From: Liolophura sinensis
Lineage: Eukaryota > Mollusca > Polyplacophora > Chitonida > Chitonidae
Direction of reading: 5' to 3'
NCBI RefSeq assembly: GCF_032854445.1
Contig: NC_088295.1
Coordinates: 18,897,385-18,961,384 of the forward strand
DNA length: 64,000 bases
The notes beneath the pieces are model-generated. The model saw only the letters and a list, made by a program, of their open reading frames with translations, searched no databases and was not told the DNA's origin. Position 1 is the stretch's first letter. Each line of letters starts with the position of its first letter. Of the stretch, positions 3,161 through 35,250 are shown one piece after another. The position numbers and the translations under genes are program-made.

Positions 3161-4184
3161 TACGACGGTCACGGCATACATCTGAGCTGCATAAAATGAC
3201 ACCCAAGTCTATAAAGTCGTTTTATGCTTGATAACGGTATCTTAGTGCCTATACCGAAACGTCGCTCACAGAATAAATATAAGTTGTGATCAATATATAT
3301 TTGTTATGTTATCCAACTCAGCTTCTAAATGCTACTGAAAGAAAGCAAAGTCGGCAACATGAACGATCGATGACAGGCATAGGGTCTCAGACATGCATCT
3401 GCGCCTGTTACTCCTAACGCTACAAGTCGGAAATGGGGATTGTAGGCCTATTGGTCATAGTTAATTGTCATCCGACTTCGACATCGGAGAGATACTTTAC
3501 AGTACATCTGAAAGCAGTCATAGGCCTAAGTTACGCGTTTACGTCATGTTATGGGGTGGATATGCTGGGCCTATCTACACGAAGAGGGATTGCGAAAATG
3601 TGAAGACGGATGGGCCCTTGTATATCCTAAGTGGCCTATAGATATAGGTATACTCAGCCTACCGAATCACAGTATGGATTATTAAGACAGGGCGAAACAT
3701 TAAACTAACTCAACTGTTGCTTTCAGAAAGTCAATTGAATTGTTAAACCATGCAGTTTTTGTTTAAATCAACATGCAAAACTTGATCAGTGAAACGCTTA
3801 CAGTTGAATGTCGGCATTAAAATTTCCTTTTGATTGTTAGTTACAAAACCTTTACAGTTTGAACCGTCAGGACCAAGAAGATAGCATTATGTAATTATAC
3901 ATATATGGCTTTAATTTTGCCGGTCTCAGTTCATAGGTTTGTGGACCCAGACCTCTGTTGGTTATTGGGCCTGTATGAATCCAGATCAGCCCTATGCTGT
4001 ATGTTTACACCTATGTATAAGCAAGGTGTAAAACATTGGAAAATAGTCTGTGTAGAGACGGCTATATTGAACCTTGGAGAAGCTGTCGCCTTAAACGTAT
4101 GGCGGACTTATATGATCACCTGAAGTAGGGCCTATAGGTATTCTAAATTGTCTGTCATACATTGCATGTATACCTTCAGTTTGT

Positions 4185-4311
4185 TCTATTTATTTATCTA
4201 ATTGGTGATTTACGCCGTACTAAAGAATATTTCACTTATACGACTGCGGCCAGCGTTATAGTGGGAGGAAACCGGCCAGAGCCCGGGAAAACTCACGATC
4301 ATCAGCAGGTT
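4185..4311 (-). mobile_element. SINE copy (mollusc-type 'ggcgtaaaacacc' family)
   Basis: The plus strand starts with a TTTA-rich tract, then 'tttacgccgtactaaag', 'atatttcacttatacgac' and 'cagagcccgggaaaactcac'. This is the reverse complement of a family present at least seven more times in the window (for example 29483-29652), so the SINE sense strand is minus. It is 5' truncated and diverged. Confidence 0.8.
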
Positions 4312-4559
4312 CAGTTTGTTCTAATCGCAGATCAATTTACCATTCAATCAATTATATAATGTATACGGTTATGAATATAAATGTGTGGAAAAAAAGAAGA
4401 AAAAAGTAGTGAGCCTTTTTCTATATATTTACTATATAAATATATCAATTTTTGAAAAGGATAAATATATAGTTTTAGCATACAAAAGCTGATACAATTT
4501 TAGTTCTTATGCGTCTATAAATAGCAAGAAGTCTTAAACACAACATTTTAATCAATGAC

Positions 4560-4742
4560 CACTGAGATGGCGATACTGCCCACGTGCAAGCTATTTTTTT
4601 TTTTTTTTGTTTGCGGCAGAGGTAATGTTTGCCGAAAACATACGGTGTTAACCGAAGAACCACTTCCGGAAATAATCGGGTGAAACCGTCAGTCGGCCAT
4701 ATTCACTACATTCAAGGACGAAATACAGGCCGGTCCGACACG
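4560..4742 (+). promoter_or_regulatory. probable UQCRC2 promoter and 5' UTR
   Basis: Just upstream of the chosen start codon are CACTTCCGG at 4661-4669 (a good ETS/GABP, or NRF-2, site), an E-box CACGTG at 4581-4586, and YY1-like GATGGCG at 4566-4572 and GGCCAT at 4695-4700. ETS and YY1 sites are typical of promoters of nuclear genes for respiratory-chain subunits. No TATA box stands out. The transcription start is not known; if it lies downstream of the ETS site, the upstream in-frame ATG at 4629 is not transcribed, which supports the start at 4743. Confidence 0.5.
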
Positions 4743-7700
4743 ATGGCAACAAAATCAGCCAGCAGGGGAATTATTCCAGGGATTCGAGTAAATGTTCCAT
4801 TTTTATTAAACTTTGTAGAGCAAATTATGGCAATTTCATCAGATTAAGGACTATGGCATTTGAGCAAATAAACGCAAATTGACCTGTGCATTTAGTTTCG
4901 TGCAACAACAACATGTAGGCCTATCGTTTGAGTCACCTAACAGTCATATGCGAGAGTCCACATTATGGGCCTTGGATACCATCCGTCGTATCTGCTGTCC
5001 GGCTATGTCCGGTTCAAAGAGTGAAAGCACAATTTCCTTGCTAACCCATGCTCAGACTTATGTAATCTGGGAATAGATTTCAAGTCAATGCAAACTCTTG
5101 TGAAATTAATTTAGAAATAATTTTATTCTTTTATTCCTACTCTAACCTTTTACATAGTTCTTTGACAGTAAAAGTGTGAAAAAGAAACACAAATTAACAA
5201 TTTTTTTCCCCTTCTGCCGCTATGTCCACTTGTCTGCTATCAACAAATGCGCTAACTCCACGAGTGAAGTTGACACCTGATTGAACAATGTACTAACATA
5301 TCGAGCAGGTCAGCTTCACCCACTTCACTGATCAAATTGAAGCAAAGAAACCTGCTTCCTGTCAGAAAGTCTCGGAAATGCATTATAACAACCTCTGACC
5401 TGATATATTTATATGTCTCAAGGAGATTAAAGCATTTCTGTGTACATGCTGGTAAATATATATTGTTAATCAATGTGTTTTTGATGCAAGGGTCTTGATC
5501 TTGGAGTATGAAAGCCTTGTTTTCTTTCAACAAAACCATGCAATCTTCCATTACTTCACATGACATGTCCTCGCATGTCTTCCCTGACCTTTTAAACACA
5601 GGAAGCTTAATTTTGCTCAGGGAACTTACTGATGAAGATAATCGTAAATGACGGAGCTCGTACTGCTGACAGTTCTAACTGAGTCGTTTCATCTTCACTA
5701 GCTTCTTCAAAATTGTCAGAGTTATCCACAAAACCATTCCCACATGATAATGTATTTATAGTCTGTGTTGTTGGGCTACATGAATATGTATGAGCTAATA
5801 CGTAAGGGACCAACTTATTCATAGCCGGACAGAAGATGAAGTATCTCAAGGAAATCTCCAAGACACGTGCCCGTGGAACCTGCTACTTAGTCCCTTCTCA
5901 TTTCTGCCAGGGTTGGTTTTGCTCTGTATTACTTGGTACGTTAGTACATCATCAGATGAGTTGAGCCACACACATGTGGCTACAAATGTGCAAGCCTCAG
6001 AAAATGTCCAAAATCCCATTCAAGGCAAGGTGGTGAAGCATGTTTGCAGTCAGTCAGTTTTGATTACTTGTTTCTAGAATATCAATTTTTTTTTATATAA
6101 ATTTATGTGTATGTGCATCTGTATTATCTATTTATTCTTGTAACTTCATGATCATCAATGCATTTGATTGACAAGTGGGATGAACATGTCCCCTCAAGGT
6201 CGAGTGTTGTGAAATGAGAAATGAATCATGACACCAGTATGTTCCAAAGTGTGTGTCTCTGATCTCAGATATGTTGACATTCAACGTTGCATGTAGAACT
6301 AAAATCCAAAGTATAGTAGAATAGCAATTCTAACCAGGTACAAATTGGGTCCATACAGTGTTACTTTCTGAAATTTCAAGTGTGAGACAGTGTACTGATT
6401 TGAGAATTTATCTGGATGTTCCAGGAAAAAGGCAGTTGGAAACTTCTGTGCTGGTATATGAAGTAAACATTTTCTTTTATTTAAGGTTAGATTCTAGTGA
6501 AGTGAATTTATGAGCTTTACTTTTCAGAGACGGCTGTATGCATCCCAGGCTGCATCCAGAGCTGAACAAGGAGAGTCACATCTGCCAAAGCAGGATCCAA
6601 AGGTGAATTACATGTGAACTTGTGCAGATGTTTTATTTATATATGATTATTCAGTAGAGATTAACAGATTAATGTCATCCAGTGACAGAATAACATTCGA
6701 TGAAAATACCATTATTTACATGTATATCACAATAATTTAATTATTGCCCAACCAGATGTAGCAAATTTTATATGGAATGAGCCAATCCTATATACAGTAT
6801 GACTGTTTTGAATAGACTCCATGTTTTCAAAGATGCCTTAGCCATTTGGCTTTACTCCTGCACCAAATTTATGGTGGTTTAGGCGATATCCTGGGGTATG
6901 CGGTTGTTGTTGAGAGGTAGATTGAGATATGACTTTGTGTCGAATCAGAACTATAAAACAGAGTCATATTGTATAGGACAAAGAATGGGCATATATCAGC
7001 TAGCTGTAACCACTGAGTGATCTCTGATTAGGTATTACTATACCATGACAACTTCAAAGAAATATGTGTTCCAACATATGCTCTTGCAATTACAACAAGC
7101 AGTACTATTTGTAGACGTAATGAGCATTGCTTCAGACAGAAGGCATTAAAAACCCATGTAAATACACACACCTTCATACTTCTTTCACATTTAAGATTCC
7201 TACAAAGTTGCCCATTATGTTGGCTGAAATTTTTTTTTTTTGTCCCCAGATAACCAAGCTGCCTAATGGTGTACTTGTGGCATCTGTGGAGAACTATTCT
7301 CCACTGTCGCGAGTGTCTGTTGTCGTCAACGCTGGCTCTCGTTTTGAAGATGGAGACAACTTAGGTGTGACACATTGCCTGAGGGTAGCAGCTTCACTGG
7401 TAAGTTACAGTAATCTCCCTTGTAAAATTATGACTTGCATAAGGGTTTTATTTGATACAGTTAATTCATACTTTGCTGAGCATGTTATAATGTCATCACG
7501 ATGTCCATTTGTTCACCAGTTCATTTGTTGGCCTATTTGATCATCTGTAAGTTTGAATGACATGATCGCAGTATAAGTCAAACTGCTTCAGTTGAAGATA
7601 TCATATTTGATTTGCAGGTTCACATAAGTCACATTCATATTCTTGGTAGAAATGTCACGACATCTTGCAGTGTACTCGAGCTGGTCACTAATTTTCATTC

Positions 7701-21600: not shown

Positions 21601-24354
21601 ACACTGGAAGTTAAATACTAGGATAAAGGAATCTGTATTGCTGTTTTCAGTTTGAAAATTGAATTGTCATAAAAAGGGCAAAAGTAATGTGGAAAGGCAA
21701 TTCAATTTAGACTAACAAGTCTGTACAAATGTTTCATATATGCCACATAGCACAAGCATCCATTGAACTGACAGGGTCATGCTAACACATCTCAGTTCAG
21801 TGTCATTCAGGAATGACAAAGTTGGCTATGTGTAGCACATTACAGATTCCTCTGCTGTGGGACTGATTTTCATGTTTTACTTTTGTTTGGGATGTTTGGT
21901 TGTATCAGTCATGGTGATTCACAAAAACATATGTAGATCCAGCCAACAAAGGGTCTGCTGCTGTGTCAGGCAAAGATATGCAGGAAAGTGTCACTAATAA
22001 ATTAAGCTGTGTCTTTCTTATTTTGACAGGCTTAGCTAACAGATTTGAAGAATACCCAAAGCTGAGAGAGTTAATTCGATTGAAAGATGAATTAATTGCT
22101 AAAACAAATACCCCGCCAATGTAAGTGACACAACAAAGGTCTGTTTTACAAAATGCACATGTCAGATGATATCCACAACTAAGTTCTGCTGTGATGACAT
22201 TTACTGTGTAAGAAATATTATTACACTGACAGTACAGTTAAGGTTTACATCTTTTTGACATCTGCTTTCCATTCTATAACCACACTGTGAATATTTGGAT
22301 TTTTATCATTGGGTAGGTATCTGAAAACAGACCTGGACACCTTTGACCTTCAGGACCTGAGGATAAAGTTTGATGTGATACTGGTGGAACCACCCTTAGA
22401 GGAGTACAACAGAGCCCAGGGGGCAGTGTTTGATACATACTGGAACTGGGATCAGGTTAGTTGAGAGATCTGTCAATCATGCTTGCTACGACTGTGTTAG
22501 TCTGGCTTTGCTTACATGTACATTCGTCAGTTCATTTATTGGAGGATGATGTCAATAAATGAGATTGAAACTGGAAAGTGATTAAATTAATTATTAGAAG
22601 TTTCAGTATTTGTGCAAGATGTGAAATGAACTGAGCAAAAATTGTTGTTTCTGTGTGGTCAAACATTGTCCCATTGTAGTTGGAAATTAATCAGCAGGTC
22701 ATTTCCATCAACACATCAACATAAATTTACCTGCAGTAGAGGTGAACACATTATCACATTTGCAGTATACATGCGTATGTCTTATTGCACAGATAGAGAG
22801 TTTAGACATTGCCAGTGTCGCGGCTCAGAGGTCGTTTATCTGGTTATGGTGTGGTAACGCTGAGGGCTTGGAGCGGGGGAGACTGGTACGTATAGCTCAT
22901 CTTCATGTCCGTGTCTTTCAGGTGCAGCTTGACCATTCAATAAGTGGAATTTGGTTTCATGGGCATTGGTGTAGCAAATTCTAGCTTTTTTCAGGAAGCT
23001 GAGAGTTTGCTTGCATTCCACAGTGATCTACTTTATCATATGAGGTGACACTGTGAACTAATGTACGTGTATACATATATATATTTTGTTTTTCTTCTTT
23101 CCTAAATATTTGATGTATAATTTAATTTGAATTTTTAATTCGATTTTGGCCTTTAAGGGTAACTTCGTAACCAGAGGGAGGATTTCGGTTTTCTCATAGT
23201 ACATGTATTTATGATATGCTTTTGAAAAAGCTGAATTTATTGTTCATGGCCATTGTCAGTGTTTGAAACGCTGGGGCTTTAGGAGATGTGAAGACATATG
23301 CTGGATAAAGACTAACATCAAAGACCCAAAGGCTAAGCGAAATCCAGAACCAAATGCTGCCTTTAACAGAACAAAGGTAAGGACAGCCATTACTTTTGTC
23401 CCTTGTCTAATGTTGAAAACATGGGAGAATTGAAACGAGTTTCACCAATTCTATAACAACTCTCATATCATAACCAATATCTGTGCAGTTATGGAAATGG
23501 AATGTGTGCACACTGATTTATAGGGTATACATATTTTTATTCACTTTTCGTGTGTGTAAAGATGAAAATGATTATCTAGAAACTGGTAGTGAACTTCATT
23601 GATTGCATTTTGTTTGATCACAATGGTACAACACCACCTAAACAATTAAACAAACAGACTATATGCAAATAAGCCATGAATGTCATAAATAAAAATCAGG
23701 ATATAAATTCTGAGCAGGTGTGAAAACAAATCTTTCTTAACTTTGTTAATTTATAATTGATTGTGTGATGTAGGTTGTGAGTGACAGTGTTATGGTTACC
23801 ATGCTTTATGTATTCCACAGGAACACTGTATAATGGGGATAAAGGGAACTGTGAAGAGAAGTACAGATGGGGATTTTATCCACGCCAATGTGGACATAGA
23901 CTTGATCATAGCAGAGGAACCAGAGTATGGCAGTAAGGAGAAACCTGTGGAGATATTCCACATTGTAGAACACTTCTGTCTGGGCAGGAGGAGGCTGCAT
24001 TTGTTTGGCAGGGACAGTACGATACGCCCAGGATGGCTGACGCTGGGCTCAGAGATTACCTCAAGTAACTTTGACCCGGATGTTTATGCCAGCTATTTCA
24101 AGGATCCCAGCAGTATGACGACAGGCTGCTCTGAGGAAATTGAGAGACTTCGTCCCAAATCCCCTCAGCCCAAGAATAGCAGTCAGAACATGCAGAATTC
24201 TGGTAGTCGGGGGCGTGGTGGTAGAGGTGGAGGGATGATGAGGGGATCTAACAAGGGAGGGAACCCGTCTGGCCGGGGTAGGCGAGGAATGGGTGGCCGG
24301 GGAAGGATGGGTGGATTCAGGGGGCGTGGGATGCACAGACCAATGCAGAGATAA
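18682..24354 (+). CDS. METTL14: N6-adenosine-methyltransferase non-catalytic subunit METTL14
   Basis: RNA-binding and scaffolding partner of METTL3 in the nuclear complex that makes N6-methyladenosine in mRNA. Exons: 18682-18747, 18956-19044, 20103-20193, 20499-20567, 21138-21225, 22030-22120, 22317-22455, 22793-22885, 23260-23376, 23821-24354. Together they are 1377 nt and 458 aa with no internal stop; the human protein has 456. Order: N-terminal helix ([19 protein letters not shown]), an acidic low-complexity linker unlike the vertebrate one, then the MT-A70 fold from about residue 110 ([18 protein letters not shown]). EPPL is at residues 189-192, the position equivalent to a catalytic DPPW in METTL3 and degenerate here as in all METTL14. 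Conserved [40 protein letters not shown] and [10 protein letters not shown] follow. The tail from about residue 410 is an RGG-rich RNA-binding region. Exon 3 could end three bases earlier (two GT choices); GTAAGA at 20194 was preferred. Confidence 0.97.
19391..19461 (+). mobile_element. SINE 3'-end fragment in METTL14 intron 2
   Basis: Reads 'acgccgccgtataagtgaaa', 'tatttttgagtatggcg' and a tail 'aatcaagtaaataaataaat'. It is 5' truncated and in the same direction as the gene. Confidence 0.75.
20629..20955 (+). repeat. minisatellite in METTL14 intron 4 with donor-like units
   Basis: Eight copies of a core 'gcattcaaggtaaatatca' begin near 20629, 20662, 20712, 20744, 20804, 20838, 20884 and 20937. 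Spacers 'cacagttatgtgtgt' and 'ttctgacacatatatgaaca' alternate, giving irregular unit sizes of about 32-60 bp. The core resembles the exon 4/intron 4 junction at 20557-20575 (CATTTCTCAAG, then GTATATATCA). Confidence 0.85.
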
Positions 24355-29765: not shown

Positions 29766-29799
29766 GCATAAGGGCTTCATACTTGGGATGACGCGGATA

Positions 29800-30535
29800 T
29801 ATTACAACTATGGGTCTGGGTTGGTAAAGGTTGGCATGGTATGGGTGTATCAGATCTGTACAAGTCTGGGTGGGCAAGGCTTGGGGTGGCATGGATATAT
29901 CAGGTTCGAATATGTCTGGGTGGGCAAAGCTTCGAATGGCATTGATATATCAGAACTGTATGGGCAGCGATTGGGATGGCATTGATATATCACAGCTTTA
30001 TGGGTCTGGGTTTGCAAATCTTGGGATGGCATTGATATATCACATCATATATGTGGGTGATCAAAGATTGGGATGGCATTGTTATATCAGATCTGTTTGC
30101 GTGGGCAACGATTGGGATGGCATTGATATATCACAGCCGTATGGGTCTGGATGGGCAAAGCTTGGGATGGCATTGATATATCACATCATATATGTGGGTG
30201 ATCAAAGATTGGGATGGCATTGTTATATCAGATCTGTTTGCGTGGGCAACGATTGGGATGGCTTTGATATATCACAGCTGTATGGGTCTGGATGGGCAAA
30301 GCTTGGGATGGCGTGGATATATCAGGGCTGTATGGATCTGGGTTGGCAAAACTTGGGATGGCATTGATATATCACATCATATATGTAGATGATCAAAGAT
30401 TGGGATGGCATTGTTATATCAGATCTGTCTGGGTGGGCAAAGACTGAGATGGTATTGATATATCAGAGCTTTAAGGGGTTAAGTGAACCAAGCTTGAGAT
30501 GGTATGAATTTATCAGAGCTGGATTGCTCTCGGTG
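29800..30535 (+). repeat. higher-order tandem repeat (47+44+50 bp)
   Basis: The word 'gggatggcattgatatatca' or a variant starts at 30023, 30070, 30114, 30164, 30211, 30255, 30305, 30355 and 30402, so spacings run 47, 44, 50, 47, 44, 50, 50, 47. Three unit types therefore form a 141-bp higher-order unit, nearly identical between 30023-30163 and 30164-30304. Units before 30.0 kb and after 30.45 kb are more diverged. The unit sum is a multiple of three, which explains long open frames across the array; these are not treated as genes. Confidence 0.9.
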
Positions 30536-31659: not shown

Positions 31660-32310
31660 CTTCACTGGCCACTTCCTCATCGATATCCTCCTGGTATACT
31701 CCTCATCCATATCCTCCTGATATACCCCTCATCCATATCCTCCTGGTATACTCCTCATCCATATCCTCCTGGTATACTCCTCATCCATATTCTCCTTGTA
31801 TACTCCTCATCCATATCCTCCTGGTATACTCCTCATCCATATCCTCCTGATATACTCCTCATCCATATCCTATTGGTATACTCCTCATCCATATCCTCCT
31901 GATATACTCCTCATCCATATCCTCCTGGTATACTCCTCATCCATATCCTCCTGGTATACTCCTCATCCATATCCTCCTGGTATACCCCTCATCCATATCC
32001 TCCTGGTATACTCCTCATCCATATCCTCCTGATATACTCCTCATCGATATCTTCCTGGTATACTCCTCATCCATATCCTCCTGATATACTCCTCATCCAT
32101 ATCCTCCTGGTATACTCTTCATCCATATCCTCCTGATATACTCCTCATCCATATTCTCCTGGTATACTCTTCATCCATATCCTCCTGGTATACTCCTCAT
32201 CCATATCCTCCTGGTATACTCCTCATCCATATCCTCCTGGTTTACTCCTCATCCATATCCTCCTGGTATACTCTTCATCCATATTCTCCTGGTATACTCC
32301 CCATCCATAT
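31660..32310 (+). repeat. 26-bp minisatellite
   Basis: About 24 copies of the 26-bp unit 'ggtatactcctcatcc' + 'atatcctcct', many identical, with common variants 'gatatactcc', 'tattctcct' and 'tcttcatcc'. The strand is about three-quarters C+T outside 'ggtata'. 26 is not a multiple of three, so translated frames repeat every 78 bp; these frames are not genes. The array is cut at its last ATAT by the transposon at 32311-35207 and a decayed remnant continues beyond. Confidence 0.95.
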
Positions 32311-32336
32311 GAAGAGCTTAAGTTCAAAAGCCGATA
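32311..32336 (+). repeat. left terminal inverted repeat
   Basis: 26-bp left end of the transposon, starting GAAGAGCTTAAG. It differs from the right end at four positions. The TTAA inside (32318-32321) belongs to the repeat and is not the target duplication. Confidence 0.85.
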
Positions 32337-32524
32337 AACGCCATTTTCGCGAAAATCGAGCAACCTATAAAAATCAACACTACATAGTAACCGCTTCAGA
32401 CCAAGCTATCTATTTTTGCGGCAAAAAACGATATATGCCATGCTAATCAGACTGATAGGTTCGGGTTTAGTTCAAAAGCCGATATCCGCCATTCCACTTT
32501 CACAACAAAATCCGATATATCCAG
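32322..32524 (+). repeat. left subterminal motif repeats
   Basis: Four direct copies of a motif close to 'caaaarccgatatayrcca' lie at 32322-32343 (overlapping the terminal repeat), 32418-32440, 32470-32491 and 32503-32524 (weakest). The third, 'ttcaaaagccgatatccgcc', is the closest to the first. Such repeats are typically where a transposase binds. Confidence 0.7.
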
Positions 32525-32592
32525 ATTAACCAATCAGTGACCGCCTTTCGTCGATTTGCGGGAAGGCCGGTTATCCACTTCCGGTGGAGTGA

Positions 32593-34653
32593 ATGCTGTC
32601 TGCTTGTTTTGACAACACATCGATATTTTGCGCAAATATGAATGATTTTGACAGCCTTGACGAACGGGTAGTAACGTCACCAGTTGGAAGAAAGCGTCGA
32701 GTGAGGAAGGACGGTACCAAAAGGGCTGAAAATAAGCGTAAGCTCTATGGTGGCGATGGACATGTTCCTCACGTTTCTTGTGACCATAACGAAAACTGGT
32801 GTCTCGGTGGAACCCTACAGCCTGGTGAGGTAGTTTTCTGTGCAGATAGATTCTATAGCACAACTGTCAAGACCAAACAGGATGCAATTTTGCTTTCCTA
32901 CATGAACATCAACAAGGCAAAAAGGTCCCGAGTGAAAGACGACCGCCGTAAAAGACAACGGACCACTTCAGTCAAATATTTCATTGTGAATGAAGCCCAG
33001 GAAAAAAAACCTGTTTGCAAGGAGACGTTCATGAGTATCTTTGGTAAGTGAAATTAATTGCTTCCAGGTATTTTGTCATAGTGTGGCATAGGTTTTTCAC
33101 GAAATCTAAATATCAGGCTATTTTGGCTCCTCTGTATTTGAATGGCGTTTTAACTGTATGAATAAGGAGAGTTTGAATTAACGGACAAGGGCCACAAACT
33201 AACCCGATGTTGTTTGGGTGTGGATGGCTAGTTACGGAACAGCTGAAAGATTATCGATTAAAACTGATTTTGCTTAAATCTGGTTTTCCATTCATGACTC
33301 TTTTCAGGTGTACGCAAAGACCGGTTGAGCAACATTTCTCAGTACTGGTTAGAGAAAGGAACGCCCATGCCAGAACTCCGCGGTGGAAAACGTGTCAATG
33401 AAGAACGAGAACAACAAAAGCAGCTGATAAAGAACCACATTACATCATTTACATGCCGGGCAAGCCACTATGCTAGACGAGGCGCTCCTGGAAGAAAGTA
33501 TCTCCCCAGTGATCTCAGCATTTCAAAAATGCACAAACTGTTCCTTGAACAAAATCATGCTCAGGTTACTTTTTCACTGTATTACAGTATCTTTTGCTAC
33601 GATTTCAACCTCGGATTTGGAACACCTGTGAAAGATGTGTGCGCCACATGTACTAAGTTCAAGATGAAATTAAAGGATCCTGACTTAACTGACCAAGAAA
33701 AACAGAGGGAAGCCACTATGTTCATGTTGCACCGTCGGCGAGGCAGGCGTTTCTACGACATTCTCAATGAAGTAGCTGAAGACATCACGATCTGTTTTGA
33801 TGTTATGGAGAATTTGGTACTTCCTAAGACACCAGTCGGCCAAGCATACTACTCCAGGCAGTTATATCTGTATGTGTTTGGAGTGGTCAGACATCATGGC
33901 AGCAAGCAGAGGCAATCTACGGATGACATTGACCTCTTTGTATGGAGAGAGGACCAGAACAGGAAAGATTCCAACATGATTTCCTCAGCTCTCAGACATT
34001 ATTTTACAACCGTCATCAACAGAGACCTTGATGAGTGTACACTCTTGCGCCTCTTCAGTGATTCTTGCTATGGACAAAACAAGAATATAAATTTACTGTC
34101 AATGCTCTTTGCTTTAAGAAAACAACAGCAGCCCCAAATGAACATTGAATACTATTTCCCCATTCGAGGCCACAGCTTTCTACCCGCTGACCGCGTGTTT
34201 GGTCGCATTGAACAAAAACTTCGGAAAATTGACACAATCTCTCTCCCTGGCGAGTATATCAGTGAGTTGAGAAACCATGGTCGTGTCCATGTTTATGGCG
34301 AAGACTGGGCTGCTGTTGATTTCAAAAGTGAAGTCAAGAAATATGTGAAGCAAACGCGTTCTTTCAAACTTAGTGAGGCCAGATCTGTTCTTATCTCTGG
34401 CGAACAGCTCGGATTTCGCACCAACTACGCTGGAGAATATTGCTACCACTCACTCCTGAAAAAAGGGAAGAAATGGACAAGCTTCAATCCTCTGGATTTA
34501 CCTATGGTTAACTGTGTCAACACCAACAAGAAAACGGATGTTCTTTCTTTGTTGGAGGAAATGGGTGCTCACAGGAACGTGAAGGACTTCTATGAAGGTT
34601 TGTTACAAGATGATGGCGTGCAACTTGCCGCAGGAAACAGTGACAGTGAATAA
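32593..34653 (+). CDS. transposase-like protein of the 2.9-kb transposon
   Basis: Two exons, 32593-33043 and 33308-34653 (GTAAGT donor, TTTTCAG acceptor, phase 1), give 598 aa. A second Met at 32638 (583 aa) has a better start context. Seen: a basic N-terminal region with Cys/His (PHVSCDHNENWC, then VVFCADRFY), CATC at 262-265, then Asp-315 in ITICFDVMEN, Asp-402 in LRLFSDSCYGQNKN, and RGHSFLPADRVFGRIE with Asp-445 and Glu-452. Two aspartates on predicted beta strands followed by a helix with an acid is the pattern of an RNase-H-fold (DDE/D) nuclease; the catalytic set D315/D402/D445 or E452 is inference. From memory the 'FSD.C.GQN.N ... GHS...DR.FG.IE' signature belongs to a large family of uncharacterised animal proteins (I believe DUF7869), not checked. 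Sole gene in the element, so presumably its transposase. Confidence 0.85.
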
Positions 34654-34859
34654 ACAGTGTGCTTCTATTACTGGTCTGATATTCAGCTTTGACCCCTGAG
34701 AACCTGTCAAGGTGCTTGGAATCATCGGTATCAGTAGCAAAGAACAAAGTCGTTCACCACAATGTTCCTTTCTGTTAAAATTATGGTTGTCACACGCAAA
34801 ATGTCTCGTTCATTGAAACTTCTGATTTAATGTTATGTTATGGTAACATTATGGAACAA

Positions 34860-34865
34860 AATAAA
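34860..34865 (+). promoter_or_regulatory. transposase gene polyadenylation signal
   Basis: AATAAA about 207 bp after the stop codon at 34653 and inside the element, so the gene carries its own 3' end signal. Confidence 0.6.
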
Positions 34866-34980
34866 GTAAAGAGGAACAAAACAACAATGTCTTACATCAA
34901 AGATCGCTATAATTTGCGAGAAGAAATCATTTCATTTTACGAAAATACAGTGCAGGATTTGTCTGCTTTTGCGCCAAAAG

Positions 34981-35003
34981 TGGCGTATATCTGTTTTTGT
35001 GCC
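34981..35003 (-). repeat. right subterminal motif repeat
   Basis: 'tggcgtatatctgtttttgt' is the reverse complement of the left-end motif ('acaaaaacagatatacgcca'). It sits about 200 bp inside the right end, mirroring the motif copies on the left. Confidence 0.7.
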
Positions 35004-35181
35004 TAAAGTTAATTTTATTGATTCTAATTATCTGCTCCATTAAATGAAACATTTTAAATTACAATACCAGTTTGTTTGAATTTTGTCTAATTATTAGATA
35101 ATGTAAAGTTCATTGGGTTATTTGAAAAAGAGTTCATCAGAGAAAAAAACTTGATTTTACTCAAAACAAAAGAAATGGATA

Positions 35182-35207
35182 TATCTGTTTTTGAATTTAA
35201 TCTCTTC
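35182..35207 (-). repeat. right terminal inverted repeat
   Basis: 26-bp right end of the transposon, ending AATCTCTTC on the plus strand and followed directly by ATAT. 22 of 26 positions match the left end. Confidence 0.85.
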
Positions 35208-35250
35208 ATATCCTCCTCATCACCATTATACTTCTCATCTGTACACAATG
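35208..35250 (+). repeat. remnant of the 26-bp minisatellite beyond the transposon
   Basis: Starts 'atatcctcctcatcacca' then 'ttatacttctcatctg', a decayed last unit of the array seen at 31660-32310. It fixes the right boundary of the transposon. Confidence 0.7.

Follow-up and report, generated by a model that had tools for sequence, protein, structure and literature searches.

A recently mobile DUF7869 transposon family in the chiton Liolophura sinensis, with 4-bp target-site duplications and unequal arrays of putative transposase sites at its two ends

We analysed a stretch of 64,000 nucleotides from Liolophura sinensis (assembly GCF_032854445.1, contig NC_088295.1, positions 18,897,385 to 18,961,384 of the forward strand; here called the window), in which an element of 2.9 kb lies at the edge of a minisatellite with a 26-base-pair (bp) unit. 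Our results indicate that this element is very probably an autonomous, recently inserted cut-and-paste DNA transposon, with a DUF7869 transposase of a putative DDD type, an array of four left and three right putative binding sites, and a 4-bp stagger at A-N-N-T targets. As an earlier note on the window had claimed, the element begins with GAAGAG and ends with CTCTTC, and its inverted repeat is imperfect, with 22 of 26 bases identical. The same note took it for an apparently complete and perhaps young DNA transposon with a 4-bp duplication, and all 11 copies of the family in the host genome agree with this.

Searched at the DNA level, the host genome (609 Mb in 632 contigs; match counts are lower bounds) gave at least 27 matches, of which 14 rows correspond to 11 copies of the window family and the other 13 rows to related families at 67-71% identity. 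Nine copies are contiguous and two are split by a later insertion (L016+L039 and L019+L040; such numbers are our locus handles), and a left-end pattern made for the whole group lists exactly 11 ends of the window family. Aligned with their flanks, as had been proposed, all 11 copies are bordered by a perfect 4-bp duplication: ATAT in six (the window, L011, L017, L018, L013 and L022), ATGT in two (L014 and L016+L039), and ATTT (L015), ACAT (L012) and AAAT (L019+L040) in the others. We looked in the assembly for copies with other ends or another duplication length and found none among these 11. The duplication always starts with A and ends with T, a C precedes it in 7 of the 11 copies and a G follows it in 7, giving a CATATG-like preference. 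L013 and L022 occupy the same point in copies of one host repeat and therefore are not independent target choices. For these two and for L015, uninterrupted versions of the flanking repeats provide paralogous empty sites with a single 4-mer.

In the window the junctions read CCATAT/GAAGAG on the left and CTCTTC/ATATCC on the right. The inverted repeat alone leaves the edge unfixed, because ATAT is its own reverse complement and end pairs up to five bases further out score 22/26 too; the best pair off this shifted diagonal, which involves another copy of the subterminal motif described below, scores 19/26. The exact boundary therefore rests on the other genome copies. The earlier note had the host array fix both the ends and the duplication: the array does set the empty site to within about 10 bases (ATATCCTCCT, a phrase that stands uninterrupted in earlier units), but the exact edge and the 4-bp length come from the other copies. 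The array stops at the insertion, and to the right of the element there are only CCTCCT and a degenerate remnant. The duplication in the window can also be read as the 5-bp CATAT; since the preceding C is absent in 4 of the 11 copies and the following G in 4, with L018 lacking both, 4 bp is the sole duplication length common to all. An allele lacking the insertion, which the earlier note had suggested looking for, was not seen in the one assembly, where the right flank has no second copy and the occupied site was the one match to the uninterrupted phrase.

The nine contiguous copies are 99.5-99.9% identical, with a mean pairwise difference of 0.29% (range 0.10-0.48%). They have 38 variable gap-free columns, and each of the 38 changes occurs in a single copy (on average 4.2 private changes per copy). 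As judged from this alignment, such star-like divergence is that of a recent burst, which would be roughly 0.3-1.5 million years old if neutral changes are assumed to arise at 1-5 per billion sites and year. The frame of 583 amino acids (aa) is open in eight of the nine, the exception being L022, where a 9-bp insertion carries a stop; L012 lacks 31 bp beyond the gene, and the proteins of the window and L017 differ at two residues. As for the two split copies, L016/L039 (G000:C11:21875890-21881759) and L019/L040 (G000:C4:302056-307963), each is interrupted by an insert of about 5.9 kb; both inserts begin alike (TGAATGAATGAATGATTATGGCTT) and finish alike (CCACGGGGGG), the pieces of the interrupted copy overlap by 14 bp in one case and 18 bp in the other, and from these edges they look like one family of retrotransposons without long terminal repeats (non-LTR).

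The earlier note also called the frame intact. This is the case after removal of a predicted 264-bp intron, and not for one uninterrupted frame. Consistent with the prediction, homologous pieces of the L021 and L031 types break at the same intron position on both sides; in family C (L005/L029) the position is seen on the exon-2 side only and in family D (L023/L024) on the exon-1 side only. Exon 2 of the window element matches DUF7869 (PF25273), listed in Pfam as a domain of unknown function, with 41.4 bits and an E-value of 1.5e-10 (curated cut-off 26 bits), and the N-terminal exon has no match above the cut-off in Pfam. We aligned nine rows, all from the host genome; the eight other than the window protein share 17-70% identity with it. 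D387, H424 and D430 are invariant in all nine, D300 is present in seven of the eight rows covering the site, and E437, an alternative third acid, in six of eight. Conservation thus points to D300/D387/D430 as a putative DDD catalytic triad.

Searches beyond the host covered viral, prokaryote, phage and plasmid sequences and no animal genomes, and therefore say little on how widely the element is spread. No relatives were confirmed in viral contigs, plasmids or prokaryote species genomes, where a pattern scan gave two matches, both judged chance; two phage records at E = 6 were likewise judged chance. A search of the open-access literature for GQNKN returned only papers of unrelated (ecological and similar) title.

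Newly recognised here is an unequal array of a 19-bp motif (approximately CAAAANNCGATAWACGCCA), with four left copies (at 15, 112, 163 and 196 of the element) and three right copies (at 15, 209 and 237 from the right end), all pointing inward and at nearly fixed offsets in five families. Motif matrices built from the terminal sites of other families only found the internal left sites at 110-112, 162-163 and 195-196 in 5/5 families, and the internal right sites at 206-210 and 237-242 in 4/5. We then compared fixed places, at 112, 163 and 196 (+/-2 bases) on the left and 209 and 240 (+/-4) on the right, in four families with simulated ends. Eighteen of the 20 places were filled, and the observed score was reached by 0 to 24 of 4000 simulations, except at the fourth left site of family B. 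Both misses belong to the right end of L031, whose sites are shifted by about 87 bp towards the terminus; in four short relatives from that family the sites are at 208-214 and 239-246, so that L031 itself seems to have lost a stretch of about 87 bp. Between families, left sites 2-4 average 65% identity, spacers 47% and shuffled spacers 43%. In sequence the spacers are almost saturated, to a lesser degree between families A and C, and yet their lengths vary by no more than 2 bases, pointing to a constraint on spacing. The motif copies thus probably form an ordered array of putative transposase-binding sites.

A DUF7869 profile search of the host genome gave 31 matches, and 16 loci of related families were examined for ends by an indexed end search. 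Matching ends with a 4-bp duplication were found at seven of these loci. Five have GAAGAG ends, namely L021 (AAAT), L033 (ACTT), L031 (ATAT), L023 (ATAT) and L029 (AATT, from two analyses combined), and four further families of the genome share GAAGAG ends and 4-bp duplications, though not at every locus. The other two, L038 (ATTT) and L037 (ATAT inside a longer AT run), belong to a distant DUF7869 family with GTGACC ends, which suggests that the 4-bp duplication may be a trait of the wider DUF7869 group. Some family-C loci lack an end pair, an end being altered or beyond the examined stretch, and the best end candidate at L032 (17/24, CATG) is not claimed.

The left-end pattern of the group has 35 genome-wide matches, and its reversed control has 0. 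Eight L031-type ends were listed and five, besides L031 itself, were examined. Four of the five are internally deleted elements (L041, L042, L044 and L045) of 884-980 bp, with a common 518/3202 junction and a longest open stretch of 110-136 codons; L043 stands outside this count, its right end not having been found in the stretch examined. The duplications of the four are again of 4 bp (AAGT, AAAT, ATAT and ATTT), the ATAT of L044 lying in an AT run and being uninformative alone. All four retain both site arrays. Having spread after the loss of most of the gene with the arrays kept, these derivatives point to the arrays as the part required by the transposase.

Based on these results, we propose the following course of transposition. 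The two-exon gene would yield the 583-aa transposase, whose N-terminal Cys/His part may bind DNA at the 19-bp motif and whose DUF7869 part may be the DDD catalytic core for cutting and joining. Occupying the four left and three right motif copies at their near-fixed spacing, the transposase would assemble an ordered synapse in which left and right ends are unlike. Cleavage would take place at GAAGAG...CTCTTC, and joining to the target with a 4-bp stagger at A-N-N-T, CATATG-like sites being preferred, would leave the 4-bp duplication.

Other explanations can be considered for the duplication, the protein and the motif. The unit of the minisatellite itself has ATAT, which makes the window locus alone weak evidence and raises the question of whether the duplication is an accident of the array, or the insert an assembly join; with the same ends and perfect 4-bp duplications in ten further copies, and paralogous empty sites for three of them, this was rejected as having practically no chance of being right. 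An open frame with an intron could also be that of a domesticated host gene. The gene lies within inverted repeats and duplications, and its copies are scattered, each flanked by duplications, and diverge in a star-like manner, for which reason domestication was rejected too, with hardly any probability left to it. The 19-bp motifs might be promoter or host-factor sites instead of transposase-binding sites, the four left copies (32325-32524) being directly upstream of the gene, whose start codon is at 32638. Against this, three inward-pointing copies lie at the right end beyond the gene, the first copy begins inside the inverted repeat at both ends, and the arrays persist in 4/4 short relatives measured, which have lost most of the gene, so that we regard a promoter or host-factor role as improbable.

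Several observations weigh against a cut-and-paste transposon with a DDD core and an ordered site array, or make it less clean. Among the related families, L030 has GAAGAG ends and is flanked by ATAT/ATAC, L026 has unlike 4-mers and an altered last base, and no clear end pair was found in 7 of the 16 loci (L024, L027, L028, L032, L034, L035 and L036); L037 and the derivative L044 sit in AT runs, where the length of the duplication is ambiguous. The offsets of the fixed-place comparison were picked after the matrix result, with 240 a rounded value (237 in the window), and some sites in it are weak, namely those of family D (14, 8, 24 and 10 of 4000) and, in family B, the fourth on the left (73 of 4000). 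The identity comparison is tilted towards the sites, since they had been picked for matching the motif, and the spacers of families A and C exceed the shuffled level. As to the protein, all nine aligned rows match DUF7869 at E <= 0.01, which is no independent test, the non-window rows having been found via that profile; D300 is missing in L035, a degraded locus, and present in its sister L036; and a sequence search of the PDB gave no significant relative of the transposase. Finally, later insertions have already broken up two of the 11 copies, which shows that the family is not brand-new. With these points taken into account, we retain the DUF7869 transposon as by far the best supported reading.

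The coordinates of the element and of the features discussed are collected in Table 1.

Table 1. Features of the transposon and its insertion site (window positions), and elements of the distant family (positions in the named loci)
Feature	Position	Strand	Basis or remark
Minisatellite, 26-bp unit, 24.5 units	31674..32310		insertion at right edge of array
Target-site duplication, left copy, ATAT	32307..32310		sequence; perfect 4-bp duplications in 11/11 copies
Transposon, 2,897 bp	32311..35207	+	ends and genome copies
Left terminal inverted repeat, 22/26 identical to right	32311..32336	+	end comparison
Putative transposase site L1, element position 15, starts inside inverted repeat	32325..32343	+	motif matrix
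Putative transposase site L2, position 112	32422..32440	+	motif matrix
Putative transposase site L3, position 163	32473..32491	+	motif matrix
Putative transposase site L4, position 196	32506..32524	+	motif matrix
Transposase exon 1, N-terminal part with invariant Cys/His	32638..33043	+	sequence, homologues
Intron, 264 bp, GT...AG, phase 1	33044..33307	+	predicted from sequence
Transposase exon 2, DUF7869 core, D300, D387, D430 and H424 of 583-aa protein	33308..34653	+	profile match, alignment
AATAAA 3' of stop, polyadenylation signal by appearance only	34860..34865	+	sequence
Putative transposase site R3, position 237 from right end, weakest of right three	34953..34971	-	motif matrix
Putative transposase site R2, position 209 from right end	34981..34999	-	motif matrix
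Putative transposase site R1, position 15 from right end	35175..35193	-	motif matrix
Right terminal inverted repeat	35182..35207	-	end comparison
Target-site duplication, right copy, ATAT	35208..35211		sequence
Distant GTGACC family elements	L037 4145-5936; L038 (reverse complement) 3847-5960		CAAAA...GATA array absent

Elsewhere in the window, another tandem array lies near the minisatellite (29782-30521) and is complex, its periods being close to 50, 141 and 191 bp, and an open frame at 23785-24351 (+) matches the RNA adenine methyltransferase domain MT-A70 (2.9e-25), which we take to be of the METTL3/METTL14 kind.

These results give a Pfam domain of unknown function a likely role as a transposase core. 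The family appears to have moved recently, and its several intact copies with defined ends make a transposition test straightforward; should it prove active, it would add a candidate tool for DNA delivery. The conserved unequal array makes a concrete prediction on how this group of transposases pairs its ends; among eukaryotic transposons, structures have clarified this step for only a few, including Hermes and piggyBac-type elements.

The earlier note knew of no named superfamily with this combination of features, a statement that proves too strong in view of the printed descriptions of Sola, whose original description is said to be that of Bao and others in 2009. Sola elements are described as having a DDD transposase, 4-bp duplications and mostly 2-9 kb in length (PMC10741241), the duplications of Sola2 are given as AWWT, with ATAT, AAAT and ATTT (PMC3627910), and Sola2 elements were counted in molluscs by a bivalve survey (PMC10294476). 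The window element fits in the length and kind of its duplication and in its size, and would fit in its putative DDD triad, and like Sola2 it has short imperfect inverted repeats; all 11 copies have a 4-bp duplication, which is ATAT, ATTT or AAAT in eight and ATGT (2) or ACAT (1) in the remaining three. Membership of Sola, in the Sola2 group, is thus likely by printed description. That the element is a further Sola2 family in which the site array is known or general is an assumption we somewhat favour, and it is a question of naming, compatible with the transposon described here. The likeness is one of description, and the passages on Sola and Sola2 in these papers mention neither GAAGAG ends nor a 4+3 array; the one Sola2 protein size found in PMC3627910 is 888 aa, against 583 aa here. 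For DUF7869, PF25273 or IPR057191 no mention was found in the open-access literature, a search with Repbase and Dfam outside its scope, and the window family may already be listed in either. That DUF7869 marks a separate lineage of DNA transposons outside Sola, with a GAAGAG branch marked by A-N-N-T duplications, the seven-site array and an ordered, direction-sensing synapse undescribed for eukaryotic transposons with 4-bp duplications, seems to us rather unlikely.

Other superfamilies were set aside on their own features: piggyBac and Kolobok, as none of the 11 copies has a TTAA duplication; Ginger, as no Gypsy-integrase-like match was found in Pfam; and hAT, as the duplication is of 4 and not 8 bp and no BED or hAT domain match was found in Pfam. 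With regard to the unequal ends, Tn7 and phage Mu also have unlike left and right ends, each with several sites of one transposase, and make 5-bp duplications; they are bacterial and use other transposases, so the likeness is an analogy only. PF25273, entered in Pfam without a function, is here the core of a transposon with defined ends and a defined duplication. Closer in working principle is Hermes, a hAT element, whose dissimilar ends are described as reaching far inward with repeated short sites arranged differently at each end, the short sites being read by the transposase's own DNA-binding domain and the right end reportedly being bound by no BED domain (PMC10368747). As far as that description goes, what the two share is unequal arrays of repeated sites and not kinship; Hermes has 8-bp target sites, a BED zinc finger and a hAT core, and the element described here has 4-bp duplications and a DUF7869 core.

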